A stretch of 64,000 nt of DNA from Betaproteobacteria bacterium (GTDB taxonomy: Bacteria > Pseudomonadota > Gammaproteobacteria > Burkholderiales > WYBJ01). The position numbers and the translations under genes are program-made. This document shows, one piece after another, positions 27,439 to 63,504 of the stretch (position 1 is the stretch's first letter; every line of letters begins with the position of its first letter). The stretch is from positions 74,015 through 138,014 of the forward strand of contig WHTS01000003.1 of assembly GCA_009377585.1 (NCBI GenBank), given 5' to 3'. The notes under the pieces were generated by a model. It made no database searches. It was not told the origin of the DNA and saw only the letters and a list, made by a program, of their open reading frames with translations.

Positions 27439-27441
27439 GCC

Positions 27442-30400: not shown

Positions 30401-30537
30401 TGGGGCTGACGATGGTCGGGGGCCTGATCGTGAGCCAGGTGCTCACGCTCTTCACCACGCCGGTCATCTATCTCGCGTTCGACCGCCTGGCCCGGCGCAT
30501 GCGCGCTCGTCCGGCGTCGGCGCGTCCGGCGGCTTGA
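27442..30537 (+). CDS. RND multidrug efflux permease (MdtB-like)
   Basis: The protein has 1031 residues, the normal size of an HAE1-family RND pump with 12 membrane helices and two large periplasmic loops. [21 protein letters not shown] forms helix 1. The proton-relay pair Asp-Asp is in [17 protein letters not shown] (helix 4). [19 protein letters not shown] and [19 protein letters not shown] are typical. It exports drugs or other small molecules using the proton gradient. Two permeases in one operon (with 30548) is the MdtBC arrangement, where the two form a heterotrimer. Confidence 0.95.
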
Positions 30538-30547
30538 GCTCGGTTCG

Positions 30548-33500: not shown

Positions 33501-33640
33501 TCGTCGGCGGCCTCATGCTGAGCCAGCTGCTGACGCTCTACACCACGCCGGTCGTGTACCTGTACCTGGATCGCTTCCGCCTGTGGTGCGCACGCACGCG
33601 CCGGCCGCCGCGTGCCGGTGAGCCGCTCGAGCTGCGCTGA
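30548..33640 (+). CDS. RND multidrug efflux permease (MdtC-like)
   Basis: The protein has 1030 residues, paralogous to its neighbour. It starts MNLPAIFIARPVATTLIMLGLVLAG and keeps the helix-4 Asp pair in [16 protein letters not shown], the [19 protein letters not shown] segment and [19 protein letters not shown]. It begins 10 bp after the previous stop. Its TGA shares one base with the ATG of the channel gene, so translation is coupled. It probably combines with the first permease, as in MdtBC of E. coli. Confidence 0.95.
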   Translation: MNLPAIFIARPVATTLIMLGLVLAGAIAFTRLPVSPLPQVEYPVISVTASLPGASPETMAATVATPLERQLGRIAGVNEITSSSSLGTTRVVLQFDLNRNINEAAIEVQAAINAARGQLPSGMPNNPTYRKVNPADAPIMVLALTSEMHSRGQIYDVASTIVAQKLSQVRGIGQVNVSGSSLPAVRAAINPRALSHQGIGLEDVRAALIAANSNRPKGLVEDHDRQWWIHANDQAFTAAEYLPLVVAYRNGAAVRLSDVATVTDSVQDKNNAAVSDGHPAVLLILYREPNANILQTVQRVEALLPWLRASMPEAMDLGTALERTSTIRGSIREVERTLIISVGLVVLVVFAFLRNFRATLVPAAAVPVSLVGTFAFMYLAGYSINNLSLMALIVAAGFVVDDAIVVLENTTRYIERGMTPREAAHVGAREVAFTVLSMSLSLIAVFIPILLMGDVVGRYFREFAVTLSVAILISLVASLTLTPMMCALLLRPPRPQSVLVRASERWFAAMLRGYERSLAFALRHSFLTIVVLAAVIGLNVHLYNTIPKGFFPQQDTGRLFGGLRADQSAPFVLTQRKMESFVEIVRADPAVQKVTAVVGGGSRRSGMMFVTLKPLAERTDTAAQVVDRLRRQALRVPGARLFLYPVQDVRIGGRQASSTYQYTLRSDDLELLRTWTPRLEQVLLSAPELQDVDSDQETRGMQLTLVIDRPTAARYGLTPDLIDTTLGNAFSQAVVSTIYRERNQYRVVMEVEERFQRSPEALKRIHVQAPGGAIVPLSAVARYELTNTPLSVNHQSQFAASTISFNLAEGASLSDATARIENAMARIGMPTTIFGTFEGTARSFRRSLQYQPWLILAAIVAVYIVLGILYESYIHPLTILSTLPSAGVGALLGLMLFDTEFGIIALIALFLLIGIVKKNAIMMVDFALAAERSEGKRPEEAIFEACRLRFRPIMMTTMAAMLGALPLALGAGDGAELRTPLGIAIVGGLMLSQLLTLYTTPVVYLYLDRFRLWCARTRRPPRAGEPLELR

Positions 33641-35121
33641 TGCGAGTGGGCCGCGGTGTTTCGTCCCGAGCGTGCGCGGCGCTGCGCGCGCTCGCGCCGG
33701 TCGCCGGCGCGGTTGCACTCGGCGCCTGCATCGTGGTGGGCCCGACCTACCAGCCGCCGGCCGTTGCAACGCCCGCCGAATATCGCGAGGCGGGCGCGCT
33801 GTGGAAGACGGCAAAGCCGAGCGATGTGGTCAAGCGCGCCAGCTGGTGGGAGCTCTACGAGGATCCGCAGTTGAGCGCCCTGGCCAGCCGCGTGCAGAGC
33901 GCCAACCAGGACGTGCGCCAGGCCGAGGCGCGCGTGCGCCAGGCTCAGGCCATCGTGCGCCAGGCCCAGGCGCAACGCTATCCCTTCGTCGGCGGCGGCG
34001 GTGCGGCGAATCGAAGCCGCGTCGTGAACGAAGGATCGGGCACCAGCACGACCTTGGAGCTCGCGCTCGACGCTTCCTGGGAGCCGGATCTGTGGGGGCG
34101 GGTGCGGCGCACGATCGAAGCGGGCGAGGCGCAGCTGCAGGCGCAGGCCGCCGATCTGGAATCGATCCGGTTGGCGGCGATCGCCACCCTGGTGCAGAAC
34201 TATCTCGCGTTGCGGGTGACCGACATCCAGGCGCGGCTGCTCGATGACACGGTGAGCGCGTTCGAGCGCTTCCTGCAGCTGACGCGCAACCGCTACAACG
34301 CCGGCGTCGCGGCCAAGGCCGACGTCATCCAGGCCGAGGCGCAGCTGCGCAGCAACCAGGCGCAGCGCGTCGACCTGGGCGTCCAGCGCGCGCAGCTCGA
34401 ACATTCGATCGCGGTGTTGGTCGGCGAGCCGCCGGCGGCATTGACCGTGCCGTCCGCCACGATGATCGCGGTCCTGCCTGCCATTCCGGCGGGCATACCG
34501 TCGGAGCTGCTGCAACGACGGCCCGATATCGCGCGCGCCGAGCGCAACGTCGCAGCGGCCAACGCGCGCATCGGCGTCGCGCAGGCCGCGCTCTACCCTT
34601 CGCTCAACCTCTCGGCCGCAACGGGGCTGCGCAGCGCCACGCTGGCGAATCGGCTGGGCGCGCCCAATTTGTTCTGGGCGCTGGGCGCCGCCGCCAGCCA
34701 GGTCCTGTTCGATGCCGGCGAGCGCGAGGCGATCACGGACGAGGCGCGCGCCGCGCACGAAGTGGAAGTGGCCTTCTATCGGCGCACCGTGCTGGCGGCG
34801 TTCCAGGAGGTCGAAGATCAGTTGGCGACGCTGCGCATTCTGGAAGAGGAAGCGAAATTGCAGGCCGATGCGGTGACGGCCGCGCGCGAGTCGGTTCGGT
34901 TGGTGGAGAACCAGTACAAGGCGGGCACGGCGAGCTTCCTCGCCGTCATCACCGTGCAGGCGATCGCGCTCTCCGACCAGCGCACGGCGGTGCAGATCCT
35001 CGGCCGGCGCCTGCTGGCCAGCGTGCAGCTCGTGCGCGCGTTGGGCGGGGGCTGGGACGGTCAGCTGCCCGTCCCGCAGTTGGGCGCGCAGTCCCCGCAG
35101 TTGGGCGCGCAGTCCCGGTAG
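33640..35121 (+). CDS. Outer-membrane efflux channel (NodT/OprM family lipoprotein)
   Basis: The protein has 493 residues. The N-terminus ends in a lipobox, VALGAC, so it is likely lipid-anchored at that Cys. Two copies of the outer-membrane efflux fold follow (RASWWELYEDPQLSALASRVQ and later LLQRRPDIARAERNVAAANARIGVAQAALYPSLNLSA). It forms the trimeric exit duct for the upstream pumps. The last residues are a duplicated QLGAQSP unit made by a 21-bp tandem repeat. Its 3' end overlaps the converging oxidoreductase gene by 61 bp. Confidence 0.94.
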   Translation: MRVGRGVSSRACAALRALAPVAGAVALGACIVVGPTYQPPAVATPAEYREAGALWKTAKPSDVVKRASWWELYEDPQLSALASRVQSANQDVRQAEARVRQAQAIVRQAQAQRYPFVGGGGAANRSRVVNEGSGTSTTLELALDASWEPDLWGRVRRTIEAGEAQLQAQAADLESIRLAAIATLVQNYLALRVTDIQARLLDDTVSAFERFLQLTRNRYNAGVAAKADVIQAEAQLRSNQAQRVDLGVQRAQLEHSIAVLVGEPPAALTVPSATMIAVLPAIPAGIPSELLQRRPDIARAERNVAAANARIGVAQAALYPSLNLSAATGLRSATLANRLGAPNLFWALGAAASQVLFDAGEREAITDEARAAHEVEVAFYRRTVLAAFQEVEDQLATLRILEEEAKLQADAVTAARESVRLVENQYKAGTASFLAVITVQAIALSDQRTAVQILGRRLLASVQLVRALGGGWDGQLPVPQLGAQSPQLGAQSR

Positions 35122-45576: not shown

Positions 45577-45670
45577 GCGATGGCGCGACGAGTCAGTGGA
45601 TGCGATGACGCAATGAGCCGAGTGGATGGGACGATGCGACGAGCCGAGTGGACGCGATGATGCAATCGAG
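45577..45670 (+). repeat. Diverged direct repeat of about 40 bp
   Basis: Two related copies lie between the FAD and Mo subunit genes, at 45577-45617 and 45631-45670. Shared blocks are GCGACGAG, CGAGTGGA or CAGTGGA, GCGATGA and GCAAT. The 3' copy abuts the GTG start of the Mo subunit gene. It does not look coding. Confidence 0.5.
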
Positions 45671-45679
45671 GCCGCAGCA

Positions 45680-47968
45680 GTGAGCGCGCTCCGCCACAAC
45701 GGTCCGCAAGTCGGCCGTTCGGTGCTGCGCAAGGAGGCGCGCGCCAAGCTCACGGGCCGCGCGCCCTACGTGCACAACCTCGTGCTGCCCGGCATGCTGT
45801 ACGGCAAGATCGCGCGCAGCCCCATCGCGCATGGCCGCATCCGCCGCATCGATACCGCAGCCGCGCGCGCGCATCCCGGCGTGCATCGCGTGCTGACGGG
45901 CGAGGACATCCGGGCGCTCATTCCCGATCCGCACTACGGCCCGGCGTTTCACGATCAGCCGATCCTCGCGCTCGACAAGGTGCGCTACGCCGGCGAGCCG
46001 GTCGCGCTGGTGCTCGCGGCCGATCCGCACGTGGCCGAGGCGGCCGCACAGTCGATCGAGGTCGAGTACGAGGAGTTGCCCGCAGTCTTCGACGAAGTCG
46101 CGGCGATGACCTCGCAGGCCATCGTGCACGAGACGCTCAAGCCCGCCGGAACGTTTCCCGATCTCAAGCACCTGGCCGGCAAGCGCGACACCAATATCGC
46201 GCTCGACTTCCATCTGCGCCGCGGTGACGTGAACACCGCGTTCGCCGAGGCCGCGCAGGTCTTCGAGCATACGTTCAAGACGCAGCAGGTGCTGCACCTG
46301 CCGCTCGAGCCCTTCGTCACGGTGGCGGAACCGGGCGACGGGCGGCTCACGCTCCATACCGCTTCGCAGAGCCCGTCGTTCGTGCGCATCGAGATCGCGC
46401 GCCTGCTCGGCTGGCCGGAGAACCGCGTGCGGGTGCAGGTGCCGTTCCTGGGCGGCGGCTTCGGCGCCAAGCTCTACATCAAGCTGGAAGCGCTGGTCGC
46501 CGCGGCGGCGTTGATCGTACGCCGGCCAGTGAAGGTGGCGGCTTCGATGGAAGAGCAGTTCTACACGCTCACCAAGCATGCGGCCACGCTGCGCATCAAA
46601 AGCGGTGTGGACGGCAGCGGCCGCATCGTCGCGCGTGCATGCGAGGTGTGGTGGAACGGCGGCGCGTATGCCGACATCGGTCCGCGCATCACGCAGAAGT
46701 CGGGCTTCACCGCGCCCGGCCCATACGATATCGATAACGTGACGATCGATTCCTACGCGCTCTATACCAATCTGCCGCCTGCCGGGGCGCTGCGGGGCTT
46801 CGGCATCCCGCAGCTGGTGTGGGCTTACGAGAGCCATGCGGACATGGTTGCGCGCGCGATCGGCATGGATCCGCTCGAATTCCGCCGCAAGAACATTCTG
46901 CGCGAAGGCCGGCCGCAGGCAACCGGGACCATCATGCGCGATGCGGCGCTGGATCGGGTGCTGGAGCGGCTCGCGCAGCGCATGCGCTGGAACGAGCCCT
47001 TCGATCGCGCTAGCGGCACGCTCAAGCGCGGGCGCGGGATCGCGATCGGCTTCAAGGCGAGCATTTCGCCCACCACATCGGTTGCGATCGTGACCGTCAA
47101 CGCCGACGCGAGCTGTAGCCTGCTCTGCAGCACGGTCGACATGGGGCAGGGCTCGGATACCGCGATGGCGCAGATCGTGGGCGAAGTGCTGGGCGTCGAA
47201 GCCGAGCAGGTGAGCGTGGTGCATCCCGACACCGACGTGACGCCCTACGACATGGCAACGCTCGGCTCGCGCTCCACCTACCACATGGGCAACGCGGTCA
47301 GGCGCGCGGCCGAGGACGCACGCGACAAGCTGCTTGCGCTCGCCGGCGAGCTGGGCTTGCCGCCGGAGACCACGCCGATTCCGGATCTCTTTCGCAAGAA
47401 GTACGGCATGCAGGCCGGCAACGTGGTCGGCATGGGAAGCTTCGTCCCGGCGTATGCCCCGACCGATCACGCCACCGGCCAGTCGGACAACGTCACGCCG
47501 TTCTGGATGGTGGGGGCGACCGGTGTCGAAGTCGCCGTCGACACCGAGACCGGGCAGTTCGAAGTGACGCGGCTCGTCAACGTGGCCGATTGCGGCAAGG
47601 CGATCAATCCCGCGGTGGTTCAGACGCAACTCTCCGGCGCCGCTATCATGCAGCTCGGCTTCAGCACCTCCGAGCACATGCTCTTCCGCGACGGCCAGTT
47701 GATGAATGCGTCGCTTGCCGAATACAAGATTCCCGGCATGCTCGATGTGCCGGCTCGGATCGAGAACGAGGCAGTGGACGGCAACGAGCGCGGCGGCCCG
47801 TTCGGCGCCAAGGGCGTGGGCGAGAGCGGCACGTTCGGGGTGTCGCCGGCGATCGCGAACGCGATCGAGGATGCGGTCGGTGTGCGCCTGACCGCGCTGC
47901 CGCTCACCGCCGAGAGCGTGTACCGGGCGCTGCGCGTCCAGTGCGGCCAGCCGCTGGAAAACGAATGA
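45680..47968 (+). CDS. Xanthine-dehydrogenase-family molybdopterin subunit (CoxL-like)
   Basis: The protein has 762 residues. Early motifs are AKLTGRAPYVHNLVLPGMLYGKIARSPIAHGRI, then GGGFGAKLYIKLEAL. The cofactor region has VDMGQGSDTAMAQIVGEVL and GAKGVGESGTFG, where Glu715 is the expected catalytic base. It hydroxylates a ring or heterocyclic carbon using water, in the cytoplasm. No CO-dehydrogenase active-site Cys motif (CSFR) is seen. Start: the GTG at 45680. The 2Fe-2S subunit starts 7 bp after its stop. Confidence 0.93.
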   Translation: MSALRHNGPQVGRSVLRKEARAKLTGRAPYVHNLVLPGMLYGKIARSPIAHGRIRRIDTAAARAHPGVHRVLTGEDIRALIPDPHYGPAFHDQPILALDKVRYAGEPVALVLAADPHVAEAAAQSIEVEYEELPAVFDEVAAMTSQAIVHETLKPAGTFPDLKHLAGKRDTNIALDFHLRRGDVNTAFAEAAQVFEHTFKTQQVLHLPLEPFVTVAEPGDGRLTLHTASQSPSFVRIEIARLLGWPENRVRVQVPFLGGGFGAKLYIKLEALVAAAALIVRRPVKVAASMEEQFYTLTKHAATLRIKSGVDGSGRIVARACEVWWNGGAYADIGPRITQKSGFTAPGPYDIDNVTIDSYALYTNLPPAGALRGFGIPQLVWAYESHADMVARAIGMDPLEFRRKNILREGRPQATGTIMRDAALDRVLERLAQRMRWNEPFDRASGTLKRGRGIAIGFKASISPTTSVAIVTVNADASCSLLCSTVDMGQGSDTAMAQIVGEVLGVEAEQVSVVHPDTDVTPYDMATLGSRSTYHMGNAVRRAAEDARDKLLALAGELGLPPETTPIPDLFRKKYGMQAGNVVGMGSFVPAYAPTDHATGQSDNVTPFWMVGATGVEVAVDTETGQFEVTRLVNVADCGKAINPAVVQTQLSGAAIMQLGFSTSEHMLFRDGQLMNASLAEYKIPGMLDVPARIENEAVDGNERGGPFGAKGVGESGTFGVSPAIANAIEDAVGVRLTALPLTAESVYRALRVQCGQPLENE

Positions 47969-47975
47969 GGGACCA

Positions 47976-48599
47976 ATGAGCGTGGAAGCCGCGGCCGAGC
48001 GCACGATCCGCTTTCGCTTGAACGGCGAAGCGGTCAGCGCGCAGATTGGAAGCCATCACACGCTGGTGGAGCTGCTGCAGCGGATGGGACTCGGCGGCGC
48101 ACGCGAAAGTTGTGCGCAAGGGCTGTGCGGCTGTTGCACGGTGCTCGTCGACGGGACGGCGGTTTCCGGTTGTCTGTACCTGGCGGCGTTCGTGGACGGC
48201 GCGGAAGTGGCCACCATCGAGCAGGTACACGGCGATGACCAGCAATGGATGCTTCGGACGGCGCAACAAGCAAGACCCACGACGCTCCCCTCTCCCTCTG
48301 GGAGAGGGGCTGGGGGTGAGGGAAACGACGCCACGCGAGGTTACGGGACGCAAGTCGCGATGGATGACCTCGGCCTGGATGCGGTACAGAGAGCGTTCGC
48401 CGCATGCGGCGCATTCCAGTGCGGCTTCTGCACGCCCGGGTTCGTGCTCATGAGCCGGCAGCTCCTGGACGCGAATCCCGATCCGAGCGAAGACGAGATC
48501 CGGCATTACCTGTCCGGCAACCTGTGCCGGTGCGCGGCCTATCCGGAGATCGTGCGCGCCGTGCAGCTCGCGGCCCGCATGCGCGCAGGCCAGGCATGA
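47976..48599 (+). CDS. Xanthine-dehydrogenase-family 2Fe-2S subunit with in-frame repeat insertion
   Basis: The protein has 207 residues; relatives usually have about 150-170. The plant-type ferredoxin domain (ESCAQGLCGCCTVLVDGTAVSGC) and the second 2Fe-2S domain (CGFCTPGFVL and NLCRCAAY) are intact, with all eight cysteines. Between them about 40 extra residues include LPSPSGRGAGGEGN, which is a translated family A hairpin repeat (48287-48322). The frame is kept, so the subunit may still fold with a longer linker. It ends overlapping the UbiD gene by 4 bp (ATGA). Confidence 0.92.
   Translation: MSVEAAAERTIRFRLNGEAVSAQIGSHHTLVELLQRMGLGGARESCAQGLCGCCTVLVDGTAVSGCLYLAAFVDGAEVATIEQVHGDDQQWMLRTAQQARPTTLPSPSGRGAGGEGNDATRGYGTQVAMDDLGLDAVQRAFAACGAFQCGFCTPGFVLMSRQLLDANPDPSEDEIRHYLSGNLCRCAAYPEIVRAVQLAARMRAGQA
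48287..48322. repeat. Family A hairpin repeat inside a coding region
   Basis: CCCCTCTCCC (48287-48296), loop TCT, GGGAGAGGGG (48300-48309) and then CTGGGGGTGAGGG match the reverse complement of the intergenic copies at 15441 and 17200. Here the element is read through in frame as part of the 2Fe-2S subunit. Confidence 0.85.
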
Positions 48600-50047
48600 G
48601 CGCCGCCACCGGCAATCCGCTCGACTTGCGCGTCTGGCTGGAGGAAGCGCGGCGCCTGGGCGAGCTGCGCGATGTCGAAGGCGCCGACTGGAATCTCGAG
48701 CTCGGCACGGTCAGCGAGCTGAACGTCAAGAAAACCAACCCGCCTGCCCTGCTGTTCGACCGTATCCCGGGCTATCCCGCGGGCTATCGTGTGCTCACCT
48801 GCAGCACGTCGAGCCCGGCGCGGCTTGCTTCCATCCTGCGGCTCGGGCCCGAGCAAAGCCACCATGGGCTGGTGCAGAAGCTGCGCGGCAGGCCGGCGCA
48901 ATGGCAGGCGCGTGCTGCGCAGTTCAAGCCGGTCGGGGTAGAAGGCGGGCCGGTGTTCGACAACGCAGTGAGCGGGGCCGACCTGGATCTGTTCGCGTTC
49001 CCGTCGCCGCTTTGGCACGAAGGCGATGGCGGGCGCTACATCGGCACGGGCTGCATGGTGGTGACGCGCGATTACGACAGCGACTGGATCAACGTCGGCA
49101 CCTACCGGGTGATGATTCACGACCGCAACCACGTCGGGCTCGACATGATTCCGGGCAAGCACGGCGCGATCCAGTATCGCAAGCACATGGCCGCGGGCAA
49201 GCCCTTCCCGGTGTGCATCGTGCTCGGCGCCGATCCGCTCGGCTACCTGGTGTCGGGGATCGAGGTGCCATTCGGCATGTGCGAATACGACTACATCGGG
49301 GCGATCCTGAACGAGCCGGTCGCCGTGGTGAAGGGCGCGCTCACCGGGCTGCCTCTTCCGGCAGCCTCGGAGATCGTGCTCGAAGGCTGGGCGCAGCCGG
49401 GCGACGAGCGCATCGAAGGACCGTTCGGCGAATTCCACGGCTACTACCCCGGCAAGGCCGCCACCGCGCCTGCGGTGAAGATCGAGCGCATCTACTTCCG
49501 AAACGATCCGATCATGATCGGCAGTCCGCCCGCCAAGCCGCCGAACGACTATTCGTATTCGAAGGCGGTCATGCGCTCGGCACTGCTGTTCGATGCGCTG
49601 GCCGCGGCCGGCGTGCCCGACGTCGCCGCAGTCTGGGCGCACGAGATCGGCGGCGCGCGCATGTTCAACGTGGTCGCGATCAAGCAACGCTACGCCGGGC
49701 ATGCGCGTCAGGCCGGCCACATCCTCAACCAGTGCGGGGTCGGCGCCTACATGTCGCGCTACTCGGTGGTGGTGGATGAGGACATCGATCCGTCGAACCT
49801 GCAGGAAGTGATGTGGGCGGTGGCGACGCGCACCGATCCGGCGCTCGACATCGACATCATCCAGCGCGGCATGGGCTCGAAGAACGACCCGATGTCGATT
49901 GCCTACCCGTATGCGGCGCCGTTGAGCTCCAAGGCGATCATCGACGCCTGCCGGCCGTACGATTTCCTGCACGAGTTCCCCGCCGTGGCCGAAGCGAGCA
50001 AGGAGCTGCAGGAGAAGATCCGCGCGAAATGGAAGGACCTGCTCTGA
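48596..50047 (+). CDS. UbiD-family decarboxylase
   Basis: The protein has 483 residues. It shows the UbiD pattern: KKTNPPALLFDRIPGYPAGYRV, GTGCMVVTRDYDSDWINVGTYR, GIEVPFGMCEYDYIGAI, EGPFGEFHGYYPG and SSKAIIDACRPYDF. The family uses prenylated FMN to add or remove CO2 on aromatic or unsaturated acids; the Glu-Arg-Glu site residues lie around EGPFGEF. A UbiX prenyltransferase gene is not in the window. Coupled to the hydroxylase operon by a 4-bp overlap, it may decarboxylate the hydroxylated ring acid. Confidence 0.9.
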   Translation: MSAATGNPLDLRVWLEEARRLGELRDVEGADWNLELGTVSELNVKKTNPPALLFDRIPGYPAGYRVLTCSTSSPARLASILRLGPEQSHHGLVQKLRGRPAQWQARAAQFKPVGVEGGPVFDNAVSGADLDLFAFPSPLWHEGDGGRYIGTGCMVVTRDYDSDWINVGTYRVMIHDRNHVGLDMIPGKHGAIQYRKHMAAGKPFPVCIVLGADPLGYLVSGIEVPFGMCEYDYIGAILNEPVAVVKGALTGLPLPAASEIVLEGWAQPGDERIEGPFGEFHGYYPGKAATAPAVKIERIYFRNDPIMIGSPPAKPPNDYSYSKAVMRSALLFDALAAAGVPDVAAVWAHEIGGARMFNVVAIKQRYAGHARQAGHILNQCGVGAYMSRYSVVVDEDIDPSNLQEVMWAVATRTDPALDIDIIQRGMGSKNDPMSIAYPYAAPLSSKAIIDACRPYDFLHEFPAVAEASKELQEKIRAKWKDLL

Positions 50048-51161: not shown

Positions 51162-52307
51162 ATGCAGACGCTGACCACGCTCGAGAAGCTCGTGCTGACC
51201 GTGGCGCTTGCGGCCGCAACCGTCACCAGTTGGGCCGCGCCCGCCATCCCGCGCAGCGAGATCGAGCGCAAGCCGATGCGGCTGCTGGCGGTTTTCGAGG
51301 GGGGCGCGGCGATCGAGCTCGAAGCGCTGCTCGTCAAGCCGGCAGCCGAGGCGCGCTATCCGCTGGCGCTCATCACCCACGGCTCGCCGCGGCAGAGCGA
51401 GGCGCGGCGCCGGATGTCGGCTGCGCAGATGTCCTTCCAGGCTGAGGAACTGGCGCGGCGCGGTTACGTCGCCGTGGTGGTGATGCGGCGGGGCTACGGC
51501 ACATCCGAAGGCAGCTGGGACGAGTCGTCCGGCCGCTGCGATTCCGCCGACCACGAACGCGCGGCACGCGAAAGCGCGCGTGATTTGCGCGCGGCCCTGC
51601 GCGCGCTCGCATCTCATCCGCAGGTCGATGCGACCCGGACGATCGTCATCGGCCAGTCGGCGGGCGGCATCGGCACCCTCGCGCTGGCGGCCGATCCGCC
51701 CCCGGGGTTGAAGGCGGTGGTGAACTTCGCCGGCGGCCGCGGCTCGCGCGCGCCGAACGAGATCTGCCGCGAAGACCGTCTGATCGAAGCCTACGCAGCA
51801 TTCGGCAAGGCGGCGCGCGTGCCGAGCTTGTGGATCTACACCGAGAACGACCACTATTTCGGCCCGGAGCTCGCTCGGCGCATGTTCGCCGCCTACCGGG
51901 AAAAAGGCGGCGTCGGCGAATTGCGCCTGTTGCCGGCGTTCGGCGAAGACGGCCATGCCCTATTCGCCCGCCGCGGCGGTGTGCCGCAATGGCGGCCCCT
52001 GCTCGACGCGTTCCTGCGCAAAAACGATCTGCCGACCTGGGATTCGCCGCCGACCGAGCCGTCGGTCGCGCAGCTGCCGGCGCCCGAAGTGCTGGCCACG
52101 GAATACCTGCAGCAGTGGCATCGCTACCTGGAGTCGTCCGACAACAAGGCGTTCGCCATCTCGCCCACCGGCCGGTTCGCCTGGCGCTCGGGCCGGTACA
52201 CCCCGGCCGCGGCGCGCACGGCCGCGCTCGATGCTTGCGGGCTGCAGTCGTGCCGCCTCTACTCGCAGAACGACACGCTGGTATCCGAGACGCTCGTATC
52301 GCGCTGA
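51162..52307 (+). CDS. Secreted alpha/beta hydrolase
   Basis: The protein has 381 residues. A signal peptide (LEKLVLTVALAAATVTSWAAP) is followed by a dienelactone-hydrolase-like fold: RYPLALITHGSPRQSEARRR, the nucleophile elbow IVIGQSAGGIGTLALA, the acid near YTENDHYFGP and the His in FGEDGHALF. The last about 80 residues (WHRYLESSDNKAFAISPTGRFAW) are an extra domain I do not recognise. The likely role is ester or lactone cleavage in the periplasm. The ATG at 51162 has no strong ribosome site. Confidence 0.82.
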   Translation: MQTLTTLEKLVLTVALAAATVTSWAAPAIPRSEIERKPMRLLAVFEGGAAIELEALLVKPAAEARYPLALITHGSPRQSEARRRMSAAQMSFQAEELARRGYVAVVVMRRGYGTSEGSWDESSGRCDSADHERAARESARDLRAALRALASHPQVDATRTIVIGQSAGGIGTLALAADPPPGLKAVVNFAGGRGSRAPNEICREDRLIEAYAAFGKAARVPSLWIYTENDHYFGPELARRMFAAYREKGGVGELRLLPAFGEDGHALFARRGGVPQWRPLLDAFLRKNDLPTWDSPPTEPSVAQLPAPEVLATEYLQQWHRYLESSDNKAFAISPTGRFAWRSGRYTPAAARTAALDACGLQSCRLYSQNDTLVSETLVSR

Positions 52308-52335
52308 AGGCCAGCGGCGCGTAGACTGCCCTCGC

Positions 52336-53487
52336 ATGGCAGAAAGCTTCGACAAGGGGCGCCTGGCCAAATCGTTGCGCGATACCCAGCAGCCGCTGGA
52401 ACGGGCGCGCACGCTGCCCGCGCCGTGCTACCACGCCGAGTCGATTCACGCGCTGGAGCAAGAGGCGCTCTTCGCGCGGCATTGGTTGGCCGTCGCGCGC
52501 GAACAAGATCTGACCGACGCCGGCCATTTCGTGACCCGCGACATCGGCCGGGAACGGGTGCTGGTGGTGCGCGGTCACGACGGCTGCCTGCGCGCCTTCT
52601 TCAACGTCTGCCGCCATCGCGGGTCGCGTCTGGTGGAGGAAGCGAGCGGGCGCTTGCAGCAGGCGATCGCCTGCCCGTATCACGCCTGGACCTACGCGCT
52701 GGACGGTCGGCTGTTGCGGGCGCCGCGAATGGATACGGGTAATGGCGCCGAAGCGCTCGCCTTGAGCGCCATGCCGCTCGCGCGTAAGGACGGCTTCGTG
52801 TTCGTCAATTTCGATAGTGCGGCGAGGCCACTGGACGAGGCGCTTGCCGACCTGCCCGACGGATCGCGCTTGGGCCTGGAGCGGCTGCGGCGCGTGCGCG
52901 CGCTCGAATACCGCGTCGAGGCGAACTGGAAGCTCGTGTGCGAAAACTACAGCGAGTGCTACCACTGCCCGCGCGCGCATCCGCAGCTCGACCGTTTGAG
53001 CGAGACTTCGATCGGCGGCTTCGAACAGGGCCGCTGCTTCAACGGCGGGCCGATGCGCCTGCGCGCGGGTTTCGATACGCTCTCGATGAGTGGGCGTAGC
53101 ACCTGGCCGCGGTTAGGCAATGTGGGTTGCGGCGCGGACGAAGCTCTCGTGCACTACTATCTCGTTTATCCGAACCTGATGCTCGGCATACATCCCGACT
53201 ACCTGAGCGTGCATACGGTATGGCCTATGAGCGCGCACGCTTCGCGCGTTTCGTGCGAGATTTCCGTGCCGCGCGAGACGCTCACTTTGCCGGGCTTCGA
53301 CCCGGCGCCGGTGATCGACTTCTGGGAGCTCACGAACACGCAGGATTGGGCTTTGTGCGAGCGGGTGCAACGCGGCGTCGCTTCGCGCGGTTACCGGCCC
53401 GGCCCGTATGCGCCGAGCGAGCGCTGCGTACATGCTTTCGACGCATGGTATGCGCAGTGGCTCGCATCGGCCCTCGCCAGCGCATGA
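52336..53487 (+). CDS. Rieske non-heme iron oxygenase, alpha subunit
   Basis: The protein has 383 residues. The Rieske cluster ligands are Cys92 and His94 in CRHRGSRLV and Cys113 and His116 in CPYHAWTY. The mononuclear iron site is in NYSECYHCPRAHPQL, with the third ligand probably the Asp in TNTQDWALCERVQ near the C-terminus. It hydroxylates or demethylates an aromatic or quaternary-amine substrate; reductase genes are not adjacent. Its stop overlaps the start of the next Bug gene (ATGATG). Confidence 0.92.
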   Translation: MAESFDKGRLAKSLRDTQQPLERARTLPAPCYHAESIHALEQEALFARHWLAVAREQDLTDAGHFVTRDIGRERVLVVRGHDGCLRAFFNVCRHRGSRLVEEASGRLQQAIACPYHAWTYALDGRLLRAPRMDTGNGAEALALSAMPLARKDGFVFVNFDSAARPLDEALADLPDGSRLGLERLRRVRALEYRVEANWKLVCENYSECYHCPRAHPQLDRLSETSIGGFEQGRCFNGGPMRLRAGFDTLSMSGRSTWPRLGNVGCGADEALVHYYLVYPNLMLGIHPDYLSVHTVWPMSAHASRVSCEISVPRETLTLPGFDPAPVIDFWELTNTQDWALCERVQRGVASRGYRPGPYAPSERCVHAFDAWYAQWLASALASA

Positions 53488-56174: not shown

Positions 56175-57599
56175 TCAACGCGGAATCAGGGGAGAACCGG
56201 GAAGCTCGGCGGGGTCCAGCGCCTCGTCGGGAACGCTCGCGCGCACGAGCGCACCGATATCGGCCAGCGCCCGCGCGTTCCAGGCGAGCGCCAGCAGGCG
56301 CTCCGCCTGATCGGTGGCGAGCAGTTCGGCCGCCAGGCTGCGGAACTTGTCCGACAGCTCGCCGTCGCTGAGCGGTCGCGCCGGATGGCCGCGCGCACAG
56401 CGCACGCTGTGCTCGACGACGCGCCCGTCGAGCAGGCGCAGCAGGATGCGCGCGCCCTCGGGGGGCAACCGGTCGTCGCCGCGCAGCTCGATGCGTGATC
56501 GCATCTCCGCCACGCGGGTGGCTGCGATGCGCCGCCCGCCAAACTGTTCCAGCCCCGCGGCGCCGTCGATGAGCGTAACCGCGACCGCGTGCTGGAGCGA
56601 GCGGCGCGCCTGGGCGGCGTTCGTGGGTGCTTGCGTGCGCGCGCGCGCAAGCACCGAGGGATGGGCATGCAGCTCGATTTGCGTGATATGGCGCGCGAGC
56701 GGGCGGTGCCGGGTGCGAACGTTGAGGCTCGCTTCGATGGCGGCGTGCAGCGTGCTGTCGCAGGGATATGGCTTGTAAGCGATGCGAGCCAGGTGCCACT
56801 CTTCGCCGAGCCCGTGCAGCAACATCTCACTGCTCGCGAGCTGCTCGAGCAGCGCGAAAAAGCCCTGCCCGCCTGCGAGTGGCAGGATCCGGTTGGCCGT
56901 ATCGCGCTGCGCCAGCAATGCGGCCGTCAGTCCGCTGCGCGCTGCTGCCGCGAGCTGGACACGGTCATCCACGCGGTACCCATCGTCGCCGAACTGGGCG
57001 AAAAGGCCCGCCGCGGAGTCGGCAGCATCGATCGCACCCATATCGCATGCTGCGATGCCGATCGCATGGGTGAGCCGGGCGGCGTCCAGCCCGAGCAGCT
57101 TGCCGCAGGCGGTCGCTGCGCCGATGCGAGCGCAGGCGAGGTGCGCGCGTGAATTGCCCGTGAAGCTCGCAGCGTTCAGAGCTTGCGCGAGGCGGCAAAT
57201 GATCTCCGCGCCGAGGACATAGGCGTGAACCATGTCGGCGCCGGAAGCCGCGCGCGCCTCCGCCAACGGCAGCAGCGCGGCGACGACCGGCACACTCACC
57301 GCAGCGCCGCTCGGCGCATGGGTGGCGCCGAAATCGAGCGCTTCCGAAGCAATCGCCGAGCGCAGCACGGCTGACGCGAGGTCGCTGCGGCTGCCTCTCC
57401 CGGGCAATGTCGCCTCGCTGTCGTCGAGCGTGAACTTGGGCGCGTCGTTGACGGCATCGAGGGCGGGATCCAGGCATCCGCCGAGGCAGCAGCCCAGCCA
57501 GTCGACCAGGGCGCGCACGGCCTCGTCCCGCACCGGCTCGGCGATGCGATCGAGCCGCGATTCGGCAACGAAGTGGGCGACGGTTGATGTTATGTTCAT
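56175..57599 (-). CDS. MmgE/PrpD-family protein
   Basis: The protein has 474 residues. The N-terminal helical domain has VRALVDWLGCCLGGCLDPALDAV, AIASEALDFGATHAPSGAAVSVPVVAALLPLAE and GADMVHAYVLGAEIICRLAQAL. YKPYPCDSTLHAAIEASL follows before the lid domain. Relatives include 2-methylcitrate dehydratase and cis-aconitate decarboxylase, so it may be a dehydratase or decarboxylase of a tricarboxylic or similar acid. It is the first gene of a two-gene minus-strand unit with the hydrolase. Confidence 0.9.
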   Translation of the reverse strand: MNITSTVAHFVAESRLDRIAEPVRDEAVRALVDWLGCCLGGCLDPALDAVNDAPKFTLDDSEATLPGRGSRSDLASAVLRSAIASEALDFGATHAPSGAAVSVPVVAALLPLAEARAASGADMVHAYVLGAEIICRLAQALNAASFTGNSRAHLACARIGAATACGKLLGLDAARLTHAIGIAACDMGAIDAADSAAGLFAQFGDDGYRVDDRVQLAAAARSGLTAALLAQRDTANRILPLAGGQGFFALLEQLASSEMLLHGLGEEWHLARIAYKPYPCDSTLHAAIEASLNVRTRHRPLARHITQIELHAHPSVLARARTQAPTNAAQARRSLQHAVAVTLIDGAAGLEQFGGRRIAATRVAEMRSRIELRGDDRLPPEGARILLRLLDGRVVEHSVRCARGHPARPLSDGELSDKFRSLAAELLATDQAERLLALAWNARALADIGALVRASVPDEALDPAELPGSPLIPR

Positions 57600-57738: not shown

Positions 57739-57826
57739 GCGCGGCGAGCCGCGCCGCTTCATGGGGCGAGCCGCGTCGCCTTATGGGGCGAGCCGCGCCG
57801 CCTCGTGTGGCGCACCGCATGGCTTC
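57739..57826 (+). repeat. Four 22-bp tandem repeats upstream of the alcohol dehydrogenase gene
   Basis: Units at 57739-57760, 57761-57782, 57783-57804 and 57805-57826 share the core GGCGAGCCGCGCCGC followed by CTTC/CTT. The middle two differ by two bases; the outer two are more diverged. The unit length is not a multiple of three, so the region is non-coding. It lies in the 285-bp divergent gap, 59 bp before the ATG at 57885. Confidence 0.85.
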
Positions 57827-57884
57827 ATGTCGGCCGCATCGCCCCGAGCGGCAAAGTTGGCGCCCGCCGATCGAGGAGAGACGA

Positions 57885-59093
57885 ATGCGTGCCTACGACT
57901 TTCGCGCAGCGAACTATCCGGTGCGGCTCTACAGCGGCCAGGATGCGGCCGCCAACATCAAGACCGAGGTGGCGCGCAACCGCGGCCAGCGCGCTTTCAT
58001 CCTGTGCGGGCGCACGCTGGCGCGCAAGACCGCGCTCATCGAGCGCATGCGTGAGCGCCTGGGCGAGCTATGCGCCGGCGTTTACGACGAAATGGAGAAG
58101 GATTCGCCGCTCGGACCGATCCTCGCTGCGCGCGATGCCGCGCGCGCGCAAGAAGCCGATGCGGTGATCGCGGTCGGCGGCGGCAGCGTGATCCAGGCGG
58201 CGCGCGTGGTCGCGATCCTGCTGGCCGAGAAAGGCGATCCGCACGAGCTTTGCACCCAGTATCCGGAAGGCCGGCCCGCGCAAAGCGTCAAGCTGCTGCA
58301 GCCGAAGGTGCCGATCATCAATGTGTGCACCACGGCGACCTCGGCCATGAACCGGGCCGGCTCGGGCGTGAAGGACCCGGAGGCCGATCACAGGCTCGAG
58401 TTCTTCGACCCGAAGACGCGGCCGAAGGCGGTGTACTGGGATGCCGAGGCGTTACTCACCGCGCCGGTGTCGCTCGCGCGCTCGTCCTCGCTGTCGGTCT
58501 ATTGGCGCTCGCTCATGAATCTCGGCGCCCTGGACATGAATCCGCTGGTCGAGGGCGATCGCCTGCAGGCATTTCGCCTCGCAGCACGGGCCTTGCCGCG
58601 CGTCGTCGATCCCGAGGACGCGGGCCCGCGCATCGAGATGTGCGCCGCCGCCTTCCTCCACAACCGCGATCAGGACGACGGCGGCAACATCGTCGAGCGC
58701 CACTGGGTGATGCGCGTCGTATATGCGTTCGCCACGGCGCTCTTCAACCGCTATCCGCATATCGGCCAGGGCGAAGCGAACGCTGCCCTCACTCCGCATG
58801 TCCTGCGCAAGCTCGGCTATCGCAACCCGCGCGAGATGGTCCGTATCGCCGAAGCGCTCGAAGCCTTCCCCGCCGGCGCGGCCGAGACCGATGCCCCGGC
58901 GCGCGCGGCCGATGCGCTTGCCCGCCAGTTTGCCGATCTGTGCATGCCGGCGCGATTGCGCGAGCTGCAGGTGCCCGAGGACGGCCTGGAGGCAATCGTC
59001 GCCGACTCGATGAAGAACTTCAACGCCGATCCCAAGCGGGAGTTCCTGCAGCACCGCGACGAGCTGGCGGAAACGCTGCGCGCCTGCTGGTAA
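57885..59093 (+). CDS. Iron-type alcohol dehydrogenase homologue lacking usual metal ligands
   Basis: The protein has 402 residues. The NAD-binding region has ADAVIAVGGGSVIQAARVVAILL, and the overall fold fits group III alcohol dehydrogenases. The usual helix Asp-Ala-x-x-His here reads LLTAPVSLARSSSLSVYWRSLMN, with neither the Asp nor the His. The usual GLVHAxxH segment reads MRVVYAFATALFNR, without His. Only PHIGQGEANA keeps its His. So iron binding is doubtful, and it may be a metal-free relative or have another role. The ATG at 57885 has GAGGAG a few bases upstream. Confidence 0.85.
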   Translation: MRAYDFRAANYPVRLYSGQDAAANIKTEVARNRGQRAFILCGRTLARKTALIERMRERLGELCAGVYDEMEKDSPLGPILAARDAARAQEADAVIAVGGGSVIQAARVVAILLAEKGDPHELCTQYPEGRPAQSVKLLQPKVPIINVCTTATSAMNRAGSGVKDPEADHRLEFFDPKTRPKAVYWDAEALLTAPVSLARSSSLSVYWRSLMNLGALDMNPLVEGDRLQAFRLAARALPRVVDPEDAGPRIEMCAAAFLHNRDQDDGGNIVERHWVMRVVYAFATALFNRYPHIGQGEANAALTPHVLRKLGYRNPREMVRIAEALEAFPAGAAETDAPARAADALARQFADLCMPARLRELQVPEDGLEAIVADSMKNFNADPKREFLQHRDELAETLRACW

Positions 59094-60510: not shown

Positions 60511-61560
60511 ATGAAGCTCACGAGCGATTCGTACGAGGTGGCCGACGCGTTCGAGGCGAACGAGCTCTACCAGCGCAGCGGCTGGACCGACGGGCTGCCG
60601 ATCGTTCCGCCCACCGAAGGCGGCGTGATGCGCTTCCTGGATGCCGCCGGTCTATCGGCCGAAGACGTTGTCGGCGTCGAGCCCGTGCGCCGGCGGCGCA
60701 TCACGGCCGAGAAACTCGCCATCGCGGCGCTCATGGCCGGATGCCTGCCCGAATACATGCCGGTCATCGTCGCAGCCGTGAAGGCCATGTGCGAGCCGCA
60801 ATTCGGTTTGCATGGCAGCACGGCCAGCACGGGCGGGAGCGCGCCTCTCATCGTCGTGAACGGGCCGATCCGCACCGAGCTCGGCATGAACGCGACCCAC
60901 AACGCCCTCGCCAACGCAGCCCGCGCCAACGCGACCATAGGCCGCAGCATCCGGCTGTTCCTGCTGAACGTCCTCGGTGGTATCCCGGGTCAGCTGGACC
61001 GCTCGACGCTCGGCCACCCCGGCAAGTTCACCCTCTGCGTTGCCGAAGACGAGGAGGACAGCCCGTGGACGCCGCTCGCGCAGGAGCGCGGGGTGCCGGC
61101 CGGGCAGTCCGCCGTGACGGTGATGTCGGTCGAGTCGCCGCACCAGATCATGAACGAGTGGACGCACGACCCGACCGACGTGCTCGATACCTATGCGGCC
61201 GCCATTCGCGCCAACATGCTGACGTACTCGATCTGGGAAGGGAACTACGCGATGGTCGTGCCGAAGCAGCATCGCCAGATCTTCAGCGACGCGGGCTGGG
61301 ACAAGCGCCGGATTCGCGAATATATCTACGAGACGGCACACGTGCAGCGTCGCGAGTGGCGCACGGTGGGAAAGAGCGCGATCGCCGGGCTCAAGGACGA
61401 AGAGCGCACCTATCGCGCGCTGCGCTCACCGGACGACCTTCTGGTGGTCGCGGCCGGCGGCCCGGCCGGCGCATTCGGCGCGATCCTGCCGCCGTGGTAC
61501 GGCAAGAAATCGCTCGCCGTGACGGCGTCGATCGTTACTGGACAAGGAGACACCCGATGA
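60511..61560 (+). CDS. Conserved partner protein of the UGSC selenoprotein
   Basis: The protein has 349 residues, has no signal peptide and is probably cytoplasmic. I cannot name its reaction. Motifs that look conserved are GWTDGLPIVPPTEGGVMRFL, AALMAGCLPEYMPVIVAAVKAM, LIVVNGPIRTELGMNATHN, RANATIGRSIRLFLLN and GHPGKFTLCVAEDEED. From memory, this block is found beside or fused to UGSC domains, which I treat as inference. Two cysteines, in AGCLPEY and FTLCVAE, could be redox partners. The ATG at 60511 follows AGGAAT. Its stop overlaps the start of the next gene (ATGA). Confidence 0.75.
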   Translation: MKLTSDSYEVADAFEANELYQRSGWTDGLPIVPPTEGGVMRFLDAAGLSAEDVVGVEPVRRRRITAEKLAIAALMAGCLPEYMPVIVAAVKAMCEPQFGLHGSTASTGGSAPLIVVNGPIRTELGMNATHNALANAARANATIGRSIRLFLLNVLGGIPGQLDRSTLGHPGKFTLCVAEDEEDSPWTPLAQERGVPAGQSAVTVMSVESPHQIMNEWTHDPTDVLDTYAAAIRANMLTYSIWEGNYAMVVPKQHRQIFSDAGWDKRRIREYIYETAHVQRREWRTVGKSAIAGLKDEERTYRALRSPDDLLVVAAGGPAGAFGAILPPWYGKKSLAVTASIVTGQGDTR

Positions 61561-62096
61561 CCCTGCGCGTACTGGATCCCCGTCAATCGGCCGAGGGCGA
61601 AGCCTTGCGGCTCGCGCCGGCGCTGCCGTCGCTGCGCGACGCCGTAGTAGGGCTGCTCGACAACGCCAAGATCGGCACGGCACGCTTGTACGACCATGTC
61701 GAAGCCATTCTGCGCTCCGAGCATGGCGTGCGCGAGTTCATCCGCCGGCGCAAGTCCGATGCGACGCGCCCGGCGCCGAACGAGATCATCGCGCAGTTGA
61801 GTGGCGCCGATGCCCTGATCTCCGGCATCGGCGATTGAGGCAGCTGCTCGTCGTGCAGTTTGCACGACGCCATCGCCGCCGAGCGGCTCGGCATCCCGGC
61901 GGCCGCCGTAATGACCGATCGGTTCGTGCGAAGCGCCCAGGTCGTGGCGCAGGTGAACGGCCTGCCGGAGTATCCGTTCGCGGTGATCGGACACCCTGTC
62001 GCCAACGATGACGACGACGCGCTGCGGCTGAAGGCCGTCGAGGCCGTGCGCCAGATCGTGCCGATCCTGACACAACGGCGGGCAGACAGACTCTAG
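61557..62096 (+). CDS. UGSC-family selenoprotein (in-frame UGA at codon 94)
   Basis: A 180-codon frame runs from ATG 61557 (AAGGAGA ends 6 bases upstream) to TAG 62096, with one TGA at 61836-61838. Read as selenocysteine this gives GIGD-Sec-GSCSSCSLHDAIAAERLGIP, the hallmark of UGSC-like proteins, where position 1 is Sec or Cys. Cys97 and Cys100 follow. The frame continues with normal coding character: AAAVMTDRFVRSAQVVAQ, then YPFAVIGHPVANDDD. A hairpin at 61849-61869 fits a bacterial SECIS. Standard annotation would end the gene at 61838. The selenocysteine machinery is not in the window. A redox or thiol-linked role is likely. Confidence 0.82.
61839..61869 (+). promoter_or_regulatory. Candidate SECIS element
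   Basis: Ten bases after the UGA a perfect 9-bp stem begins: CGTCGTGCA (61849-61857), loop GTT, TGCACGACG (61861-61869). The loop starts 19 bases after the UGA and begins with G followed by T. Both features match known bacterial SECIS elements. The top of the stem (GTGCA-G..T-TGCAC) resembles the E. coli fdhF hairpin. Confidence 0.75.
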
Positions 62097-62255: not shown

Positions 62256-63259
62256 CTACTTGGCCAACCCCAGATCCACGAGCACCGACTTCATCGCCTC
62301 GTATTCCTTCCTGAGGTCTTCCTGCATGCGCTGACCAGTCGCGAAGTCTTCCGACCAGAAGTTGCGCTCCAGATCCTTCTTGAACTCCGGCGCGGCGACG
62401 ACCTGCTTCAGCGCATTTTCCCAAAATGCCACCTGCTCCGCCGGCATTCCCTTCGGTCCCATGATGCTGCGCCAGCCGCCGAAGACGAGCGGCACGCCGA
62501 GCTCCTTCCAGGTCGGCACATCGGCGAGCACGCCCGGCATGCGCTGGTCGGCGCAGATCGCCAGCACGCGCATCTTGCCGTTGGCCACGTGCGTGGCCGC
62601 GTTACCCGAGGCGGTGGTGACGAGGTCGACGTGGCCGCCGAGCACCGCGGTGATCGCCTCGGCCGAGCCCTTGAAGGCAATTGCTCGCATGACGCGCACG
62701 TCCGCTCCGATGGCCTTCATCAGAAGTCCCGCCGCGATGTGATTGTGGCTGCCGAGCGCCGTGGCGAAACCGGCGCTCACCGACTTCGGATCCTTTTTCA
62801 GGCGCTCGCTCAGCTCCTTGCCCGACTTGATCGCGGATTCGGCATTGACGCCGAACGCGATGTAGTCGTTCAGCAGCGAGGCGACCGGCGTGAAGTGGTA
62901 TAGGTGAGCTTGCTGCGCCCGATGATGTGATTGGTGAGAATGGTGGGCGTGCCGATCATGAGGTAATGACCGTCGCCTGCATGCTGCACGAGGTAGTTCA
63001 TCGTGAGCGCGTTGCCGCCGCCCGGTTTGTTGACGATCGTGATCGACGTGGGCACGAGGCGTTTTTCGTTCAGGATGCGCTCCACCGTACGCGCGGTCTT
63101 GTCGTTGCTGCCGCCCGGGGCGGACGGCACGACGATTTCGACCGGCTTGGTCGGCTGCCAGCCTTGCGCAGCGAGCGGGCCTCCGAGCGCTGCCATGGAG
63201 GTGGCCAACAGGGCGCCGATCCAGTGTCGGCGGGCGGGTTGGTGCGGATGATGCGGCAT
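62256..63259 (-). pseudogene. Bug/TctC-family solute-binding protein gene with a frameshift
   Basis: The N-terminal part (signal peptide HWIGALLATSMAALGGPLAAQ, then PTKPVEIVVPSAPGGSNDKTARTVERIL and IVNKPGGGNALTMNYL) is in one frame from ATG 63259, which has GAGGAGG upstream. The C-terminal part (HFTPVASLLNDYIAFGVNAES to DLGLAK) is in another. The switch is near 62895-62901, between GRSKLTY and HFTPVAS. The loss of one base, or gain of two, explains it. All else is intact, so this is either a recent pseudogene or a sequencing error. It is the fourth Bug gene in the window. Confidence 0.85.
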
Positions 63260-63504
63260 GATGCGTACTACCTCCTCGTTGAGACGGCGCTTGCGCGCTG
63301 TCGATCGAAAATAGGCCACGGGCGCTCGGCGCCTGCGTGGGCCGCGGCAGTGCAGAGAAGTCCCTGTCGCCGTACAGCACGGCGGCGCAGAAAGTACCAG
63401 GGTGGTTGTGGGCTATTCTAGCCCGGATGGTTCACCGCTTCGTTCGCATCGTGACGCGCGTGACTTGCGGCTGGCATACCGTTCGGCAACGGTAACGACA
63501 ATGA

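Follow-up and report, generated by a model that had tools for sequence, protein, structure and literature searches.

Does an in-frame TGA in a short betaproteobacterial gene end the protein or encode selenocysteine (Sec), and what would the protein made by reading through it do? The gene lies in a stretch of 64,000 nucleotides (the window) from Betaproteobacteria bacterium (GenBank assembly GCA_009377585.1, contig WHTS01000003.1). Comparative sequence evidence indicates, almost beyond doubt, that window positions 61557-62096 hold one UGSC-family selenoprotein gene whose UGA codon 94 is decoded as Sec. A constant partner protein is encoded immediately upstream (Table 1), and the best explanation overall is that the two would make up a thioredoxin-dependent, two-part reductase for organic acids, a reading to which we give a probability of about 0.6.

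The frame opens with an ATG at 61557, which overlaps the stop of the preceding gene (ATGA, 61557-61560), meets the TGA at codon 94, runs on for 85 codons and closes with a TAG at 62094-62096. The read-through protein matched Pfam PF24696 (“UGSC family”) over residues 4-172, across the TGA (1.5e-50, 172.2 bits, cut-off 25), and it reached 127.3 bits (cut-off 125) against NCBIfam NF041046 (“UGSC family (seleno)protein”), in an alignment of residues 30-172 that again spans the TGA. Its U-G-S-C motif occupies residues 94-97. With both models over cut-off, the motif in place and Sec at a site that holds Sec or Cys, nothing in the protein itself distinguishes it from this family. The source genome (6.76 megabases in 242 contigs, 99.42% complete, 4.85% contamination) has the machinery to decode the codon. 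selA, selB and tRNA-Sec form one cluster on contig C118; selD lies apart, on C2, and its internal TGA indicates that selenophosphate synthetase is probably itself a selenoprotein.

To follow the conservation of the codon, aligned sequences of the upstream partner served as the query against a genome collection. This gave at least 586 relatives, of which the best 80 loci were kept and scanned for UGSC domains with a profile allowing TGA. A UGSC domain was present in 77 of the 80 loci (79 domains in total); in the three without it (L051, L096 and L103) the contigs stop 26 to 223 bases behind the partner. TGA stands at the Sec site in 77 of the 79 domains, the others being L104, which has TGC, and L110, which is cut off before the site. 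The motif varies to UAAC in L115 and to CAGC in L104. The loci bear the titles of Beta-, Alpha-, Gamma- and Deltaproteobacteria, Chloroflexi, Actinomycetota/Acidimicrobiia, Binatia, Rokubacteria, Acidobacteria, Myxococcota and others. Because they are the ones nearest to the window's partner, they understate the Cys share of the wider family.

A partner search of plasmids returned 24 records, from which eight regions were fetched. TGA occupies the site in two of them (Acidovorax and Paracoccus) and a Cys codon in four: TGC in Natrinema zhouii, Arthrobacter sp. ERGS1:01 and Variovorax sp. SRS16, and TGT in Roseovarius sp. THAF8. The last two, both fused forms, have Met for Sec; they were found in Sporomusa termitida (L135:5317-7041, GDMGTSS) and Vibrio europaeus (L138:6344-8029, ADMGTSV), near aconitase X and DUF126 genes. 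On plasmid p2-T1 of Acidovorax sp. T1 (NZ_CP021650.1) the annotation of the UGSC gene (L133:7908-8198) breaks off at the Sec codon and calls the short product hypothetical. The adjoining partner (L133:8517-9443) is missing from the gene table shown, a table known to be incomplete.

The protein is conserved on both sides of the TGA. Identity to the orthologues L048, L049 and L050 was 72, 73 and 60% after the codon and 63, 65 and 44% before it. The corresponding ratios of nonsynonymous to synonymous substitution rates were about 0.17, 0.30 and 0.19 for the downstream part and 0.20, 0.27 and 0.34 for the upstream part, the downstream value being the lower in two of the three comparisons. Judged by these ratios, both halves of the gene are under purifying selection.

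A hairpin just after the codon is conserved as well. A bacterial selenocysteine insertion sequence (bSECIS) is a hairpin just past the UGA with a G in its apical loop. The hairpin found in the window has a folding energy of −13.3 kcal/mol, a value reached by only 0.9% of 2000 synonymous recodings. From 100 sites (78 including the window, plus 22 paralogues from its own genome), 95 distinct sequences were retained after short, N-containing and identical ones had been dropped. Over these sequences the nine pairs were formed in 82.6% of cells, versus 54.5 ± 1.8% on synonymous recoding, and the highest paired fraction among 200 recodings was 0.599 (0.826 observed); mean hairpin energy was −10.3 versus −3.9 ± 0.3 kcal/mol. 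The core pairs covary, G-C at pair 18-30 changing to C-G or A-U and C-G at pair 21-27 to G-C. Of 85 distinct sequences, 84 retain pair 17-31 and 40 form the outermost pair, and some folds place the loop elsewhere (for instance those of the paralogues C44:11571, C21:4598 and C162:8716). Rfam, at its gathering score, listed no element anywhere in the window. The hairpin fits a bSECIS, its recognition by SelB being putative.

Could UGA 94 nevertheless be a true stop, the product of a pseudogene, of a sequencing error or of two separate genes? The TGA does stand in frame, and the Acidovorax homologue is annotated as ending there, but the codon, the protein on both sides and the hairpin are all conserved, Cys orthologues exist and the Sec machinery is complete, so that we regard a true stop as very improbable and rejected both pseudogene and sequencing error. 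Chance or sequencing error is excluded because TGA recurs at this same codon in 77 of the 79 foreign domains and in 23 of the 24 copies of the source genome. The preliminary description of this DNA had placed the TGA and the 85 further codons up to the TAG exactly where we find them, and its assignment of the joined 179-residue protein to UGSC was borne out by both family models. Cys orthologues, with TGC or TGT at the TGA position, exist as it supposed, and all the Sec genes that it named (selA, selB, selC for tRNA-Sec, and selD) are in the genome. Its warning that a gene caller would cut such a gene in two came true in Acidovorax, where the ‘hypothetical protein’ coding sequence stops at the TGA. 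The UGSC gene thus offers a worked example of a selenoprotein split in two by annotation.

The same description spoke of an undescribed system, and here it went too far, since UGSC-containing selenoproteins were reported in 2008 in the Global Ocean Sampling (GOS) selenoproteome paper (PMC2398784) and family models exist. In that survey, as far as the consulted parts of the paper go, UGSC is among the commonest selenoprotein families, with 255 Sec sequences and 21 Cys homologues, and a thioredoxin-like fold was guessed for it (PMC2398784). The portions consulted of the open-licence PMC literature on UGSC (PMC2398784, PMC13188914, PMC5029168 and PMC9312934) give neither a function nor a relationship to PrdB/GrdB. 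Compared with the published accounts in those portions, the separate partner gene, the predicted fold, the PrdB/GrdB link and the likely mechanism are new. The selenoprotein itself adds one member to a known family, and what merits pursuit is the partner and the mechanism.

The partner matched no Pfam model at E up to 1 and no NCBIfam model at 0.001, and it accompanies UGSC at every copy examined. A homologue was found at all 24 UGSC copies of the source genome, fused in 16, where it forms the C-terminal part of a long protein, and encoded by a neighbouring gene in eight (three in front, five behind); in the fused copy C161:4624 it is truncated. When loci were found through UGSC instead, the partner was adjacent or fused at all 20 loci, which came from 19 other genomes and were hand-picked from matches in order- and phylum-level samples (the UGSC match is partial in L153). 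All eight plasmid regions contain it. Near-invariant residues among 105 partner sequences include D27, G28, P30, P34, C78, G118, R145, N153, G168, E179, W186 and G316. A fusion of UGSC with a domain called ‘Unknown_1’ is mentioned in the part consulted of PMC2398784, and this domain is probably the same as our partner. Because of the gene order and the fusions, UGSC is taken to act with the partner, and the two very probably constitute an obligate two-part enzyme.

A family search found 24 UGSC domains in the source genome; a single TGA occurs in each of 23, and C44:7810 has TGC instead. In the copy C21:4598 (L044, C21:4598-4894) the family match begins at profile position 73, which suggests a possible disruption of the 5′ part; the 3′ half closely resembles C44:11571. 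In the order-level sample (300 genomes), 36 genomes had a UGSC match, 33 of them over cut-off, and in the phylum sample (398 genomes) UGSC was present in five, this one included. Eight genomes of the order, among them this one and three of its genus, each hold at least 11 UGSC matches, 11 being the ceiling on candidates scored per genome, which makes contamination an unlikely cause of the copy number. For a single genome to have 23 TGA copies of the same family is a large expansion; the whole-genome selenoprotein counts called largest in the consulted part of a 2026 review are 57 and 63.

What kind of domain carries the Sec? AlphaFold2 models the complete read-through protein confidently (mean predicted local distance difference test score, pLDDT, 88.1; predicted template modelling score 0.83) as an alpha/beta domain with strands at residues 30-35, 60-65, 86-92, 115-120 and 142-144 and helices at 42-56, 75-79, 95-110, 121-133 and 153-172. 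Sec94 sits in it between the third strand (86-92) and the helix 95-110. Sequence comparison with the PDB gave no credible relative. The solved chains nearest to the model are mixed alpha/beta proteins, including lumazine synthases, with Z of 8 to 9.6 and a Foldseek template modelling (TM) score of about 0.5 at best; the arrangement is a common one. On our reading the predicted fold is Rossmann-like. No PrdB/GrdB or thioredoxin chain appeared among the listed structural matches, an absence that rules out neither.

A further lead came from the motif. U-x-x-C followed by E-x-x-G-I-P in UGSC forms a local pattern like that of PrdB/GrdB, and a PrdB/GrdB-family (PF07355) gene with an in-frame TGA (VLLSPV-U-PNCTC; G000:C3:149660-150019, minus strand, L128) lies about 11.6 kilobases (kb) past the end of the window. 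This gene gives the genome a Sec reductase of a second kind. For these two reasons the UGSC profile was compared by hhalign with a profile of nine PrdB/GrdB-family proteins (GRDB) that leaves L144 aside, all E-values being those of single comparisons. The probability was 79% with 78 UGSC sequences and 90% with 101 (score 47.1, E 1.7e-6), Sec aligning on Sec/Cys. Control comparisons gave 0.25% (partner versus GRDB), 0.14% (UGSC versus partner) and 0.2% (reversed profile), and 100 column shuffles reached at most 2.1% and a score of 21.2. In PrdB/GrdB, and in UGSC as modelled, Sec stands at a strand end in UxxC (‘UGTC’ in clostridial PrdB), with a helix and a GIP strand coming next; UGSC, like PrdB/GrdB, would work with a second subunit, and a thioredoxin system lies near some UGSC loci. 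As far as profiles can tell, the Sec domains of UGSC and PrdB/GrdB are probably remotely related, with E-values that would be marginal at whole-database scale.

The thioredoxin link comes from the surrounding genes. Thioredoxin reductase genes (trxB) are annotated in three of the eight plasmid regions: Arthrobacter has the order trxB-trxA-partner-UGSC, Roseovarius has trxB directly behind UGSC, and in Variovorax the order is trxB, TctC receptor, short-chain dehydrogenase/reductase, partner, UGSC. At the 20 UGSC loci of the 19 other genomes a TrxB-like gene occurred five times (in L151 and L159 it adjoins the UGSC-partner pair, in L149, L166 and L168 it lies some kilobases off), versus none in 20 control stretches of 20 kb hand-placed in 14 of these genomes (one-sided Fisher test, about 0.02). 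TIGR01292 (thioredoxin-disulfide reductase) was the best model for all seven proteins scanned, only L149 exceeding its cut-off, and CxxC was kept in all ten thioredoxin reductases checked, a set that excludes L114. A role of trxB as a general UGSC neighbour was rejected, the gene being enriched in one sample and rare overall. We consider it probable that the enzyme is a thioredoxin-dependent reductase.

Other neighbours were scanned with 22 hand-picked query proteins from the fetched regions and the window, one of which (LLM_Natri) was void. TctC receptors were found near UGSC in 12 of 18 stretches of the source genome, in 10 of the 80 related loci and in 11 of the 20 other UGSC loci, versus 4 of 20 longer control stretches. 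We take genes for such receptors to be common in this order anyway, and the enrichment was given little weight for that reason. Coenzyme A (CoA)-transferases and LysR regulators are further neighbours.

The first suggestion for the family was a selenoprotein of thioredoxin type that serves stress defence as a thiol peroxidase or by handling disulfides, the partner being an accessory. UxxC is the usual redox motif, and trxA or trxB lies near some loci. The model (pLDDT 88), however, puts Sec behind its third strand, and the structural matches listed for it belong to different alpha/beta folds, that of lumazine synthase for example, which is no formal exclusion of a thioredoxin fold. TctC receptors and CoA-transferases are the frequent neighbours (stress genes were not searched for), and 24 paralogues suit substrate diversity better. 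We consider this explanation quite improbable.

For the partner, AlphaFold2 gave a model with a pLDDT of 92.2. By sequence it had no match in the PDB, and structural search returned weak matches only, the best with Z 6.5 over 87 residues and most of them to residues 204-334; no fold is therefore claimed. Among these matches are class I fumarase and Toblerone-fold amide hydrolases, which would suit a lyase, hydratase or isomerase with its chemistry in the partner, UGSC serving for binding or regulation and Sec as a nucleophile without net reduction; the Sporomusa and Vibrio fusions, with Met for Sec and aconitase X alongside, point the same way. Yet the fumarase and Toblerone rows have TM of at most 0.33 and Z of at most 6.3, which is background level, Sec is costly to make and is kept in 77 of the 79 domains, and thioredoxin reductase genes are enriched in one sample. 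An enzyme of this kind is unlikely.

We return to an organic-acid reductase, a reading inferred from the Sec motif, the remote resemblance to PrdB/GrdB, the occurrence of trxB beside some loci, and the transporter and catabolic genes in the vicinity. The UGSC subunit and the 349-residue partner would form one enzyme. The former would supply an alpha/beta domain in which Sec94 marks the junction of strand 3 and the next helix, the place that the motif also has in PrdB/GrdB; the latter, rich in near-invariant residues (D27, C78, R145, N153, E179 and W186 among them), would probably bind the substrate. In catalysis, Sec94 would attack the organic acid at an activated carbon, leading to reductive cleavage of a C-N, C-O, C-S or C-halogen bond, and the oxidised Sec, paired with Cys97 (for which we infer a redox role) or with another thiol, would be returned to its reduced state by thioredoxin together with its reductase. 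On this view each of the 24 copies in the genome would be a variant of the same enzyme with its own substrate. Bond cleavage of the PrdB/GrdB kind is possible, at somewhat less than even odds. More tentatively still, UGSC and its partner may represent a modular class of selenium-dependent reductases, remotely related to PrdB/GrdB and with a different substrate subunit, which an environmental bacterium would have multiplied to more than 20 substrate-specific copies that cleave bonds in organic acids, with thioredoxin as the reductant. A proposed precedent is the FarB/FarE fluoroacetate reductase of Cloacibacillus porcorum MFA1, described in the consulted part of its report as a duplicated GrdB-type selenoenzyme that would cleave a non-C-N bond (PMC10838667). 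It likewise suggests that duplicated, substrate-specific GrdB-type selenoenzymes diversify to new bonds (PMC10838667), but FarB and FarE are true GrdB/GrdE homologues, whereas UGSC is at best a remote relative. The constant partner, the likely kinship with proline and glycine reductases and the thioredoxin link make UGSC, a family given no function in the literature consulted, a testable enzyme.

Several observations weigh against this proposal. Cys97 is replaced by Ser in three of the 24 copies of the source genome (C44:7810, C44:11571 and C21:4598), and the Met in place of Sec in two of the eight plasmid regions (Sporomusa and Vibrio) implies that some members of the wider family do without the redox residue. 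In L151 and L166 a single UGSC is accompanied by two partner domains. Outside the enriched sample trxB-like genes are rare, with two among the 80 partner-found loci (directly behind UGSC in L097, at the edge in L114; L083 has one trxA) and one among 18 stretches of the source genome (L040). Masking the three Cys columns leaves the UGSC and GRDB profiles aligned over the same 68 columns, with a score of 31.3 and a probability lowered to 28%. PF07355 (GRDB) misses the UGSC protein at an E limit of 10, where the HMMER filters drop most weak matches, and the N-terminal half of GRDB lies outside the alignment. Unlike the situation in PrdB, the partner showed no relation to PrdA (two sequences, 0.10%), PrdD (one, 0.09%) or PrdE (one, 0.16%) in a profile comparison that is a weak test, so the pyruvoyl-type activation of glycine and proline reductase has no visible counterpart. 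The parts of the literature consulted contain no assay of any UGSC-family member.

Table 1. Coordinates of the UGSC locus, its window neighbours and the selenocysteine genes of the source genome (plain numbers are window positions)
Feature	Position	Strand	Evidence or remark
Partner gene, 349 amino acids (aa), stop overlapping the UGSC start (ATGA)	60511..61560	+	Homologue adjacent or fused at UGSC copies
AAGGAG, Shine-Dalgarno-like site, 7 nucleotides (nt) 5′ of the UGSC start	61544..61549	+	Read from the sequence; putative function
UGSC-family selenoprotein gene, 179 aa, Sec as residue 94	61557..62096	+	TGA read through; stop is TAG
In-frame TGA, read as Sec94, opening UxxCxxC	61836..61838	+	Codon conservation; Cys codons in L104, L131, L132, L134, L137
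Cys97 codon (Cys of U-G-S-C)	61845..61847	+	Invariant in the 78-sequence UGSC alignment
bSECIS-like hairpin CGTCGTGCA-GTT-TGCACGACG, 9 base pairs, 3-nt loop starting with G	61849..61869	+	Loop 22-24 nt past the U of UGA
TctC-type tripartite tricarboxylate transporter receptor open reading frame (ORF), start uncertain, downstream, convergent	62256..63380	-	PF03401 4.6e-19
Iron-containing alcohol dehydrogenase (context)	57783..59093	+	PF00465 1.4e-28
MmgE/PrpD-family protein (context)	56175..57599	-	PF03972 3.4e-37
selA	C118:10593-11939		559.5 bits
selB	C118:12023-13918		442.8 bits
tRNA-Sec	C118:15068-15158		75 bits
selD, one internal TGA	C2:81361-82290 (L010)	-	412.5 bits

The TctC, alcohol dehydrogenase and MmgE/PrpD genes form the neighbourhood of the locus in the window, and no link of these to the UGSC system is claimed. 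Further upstream, all on the plus strand, are genes for a xanthine-dehydrogenase-type molybdenum subunit (45626-47968), a UbiD-type decarboxylase (48404-50047) and a Rieske ring-hydroxylating oxygenase (51955-53487), whose presence near UGSC suggests catabolism of aromatic compounds or organic acids. Several window ORFs without a family match are probably not genes. At 26029-35121, also on the plus strand, genes for an HlyD_D23 membrane-fusion protein, an ACR_tran pump (27442-30537), a second ORF of 1030 aa and an OEP outer-membrane protein follow one another, apparently a resistance-nodulation-division efflux operon with two pump genes.

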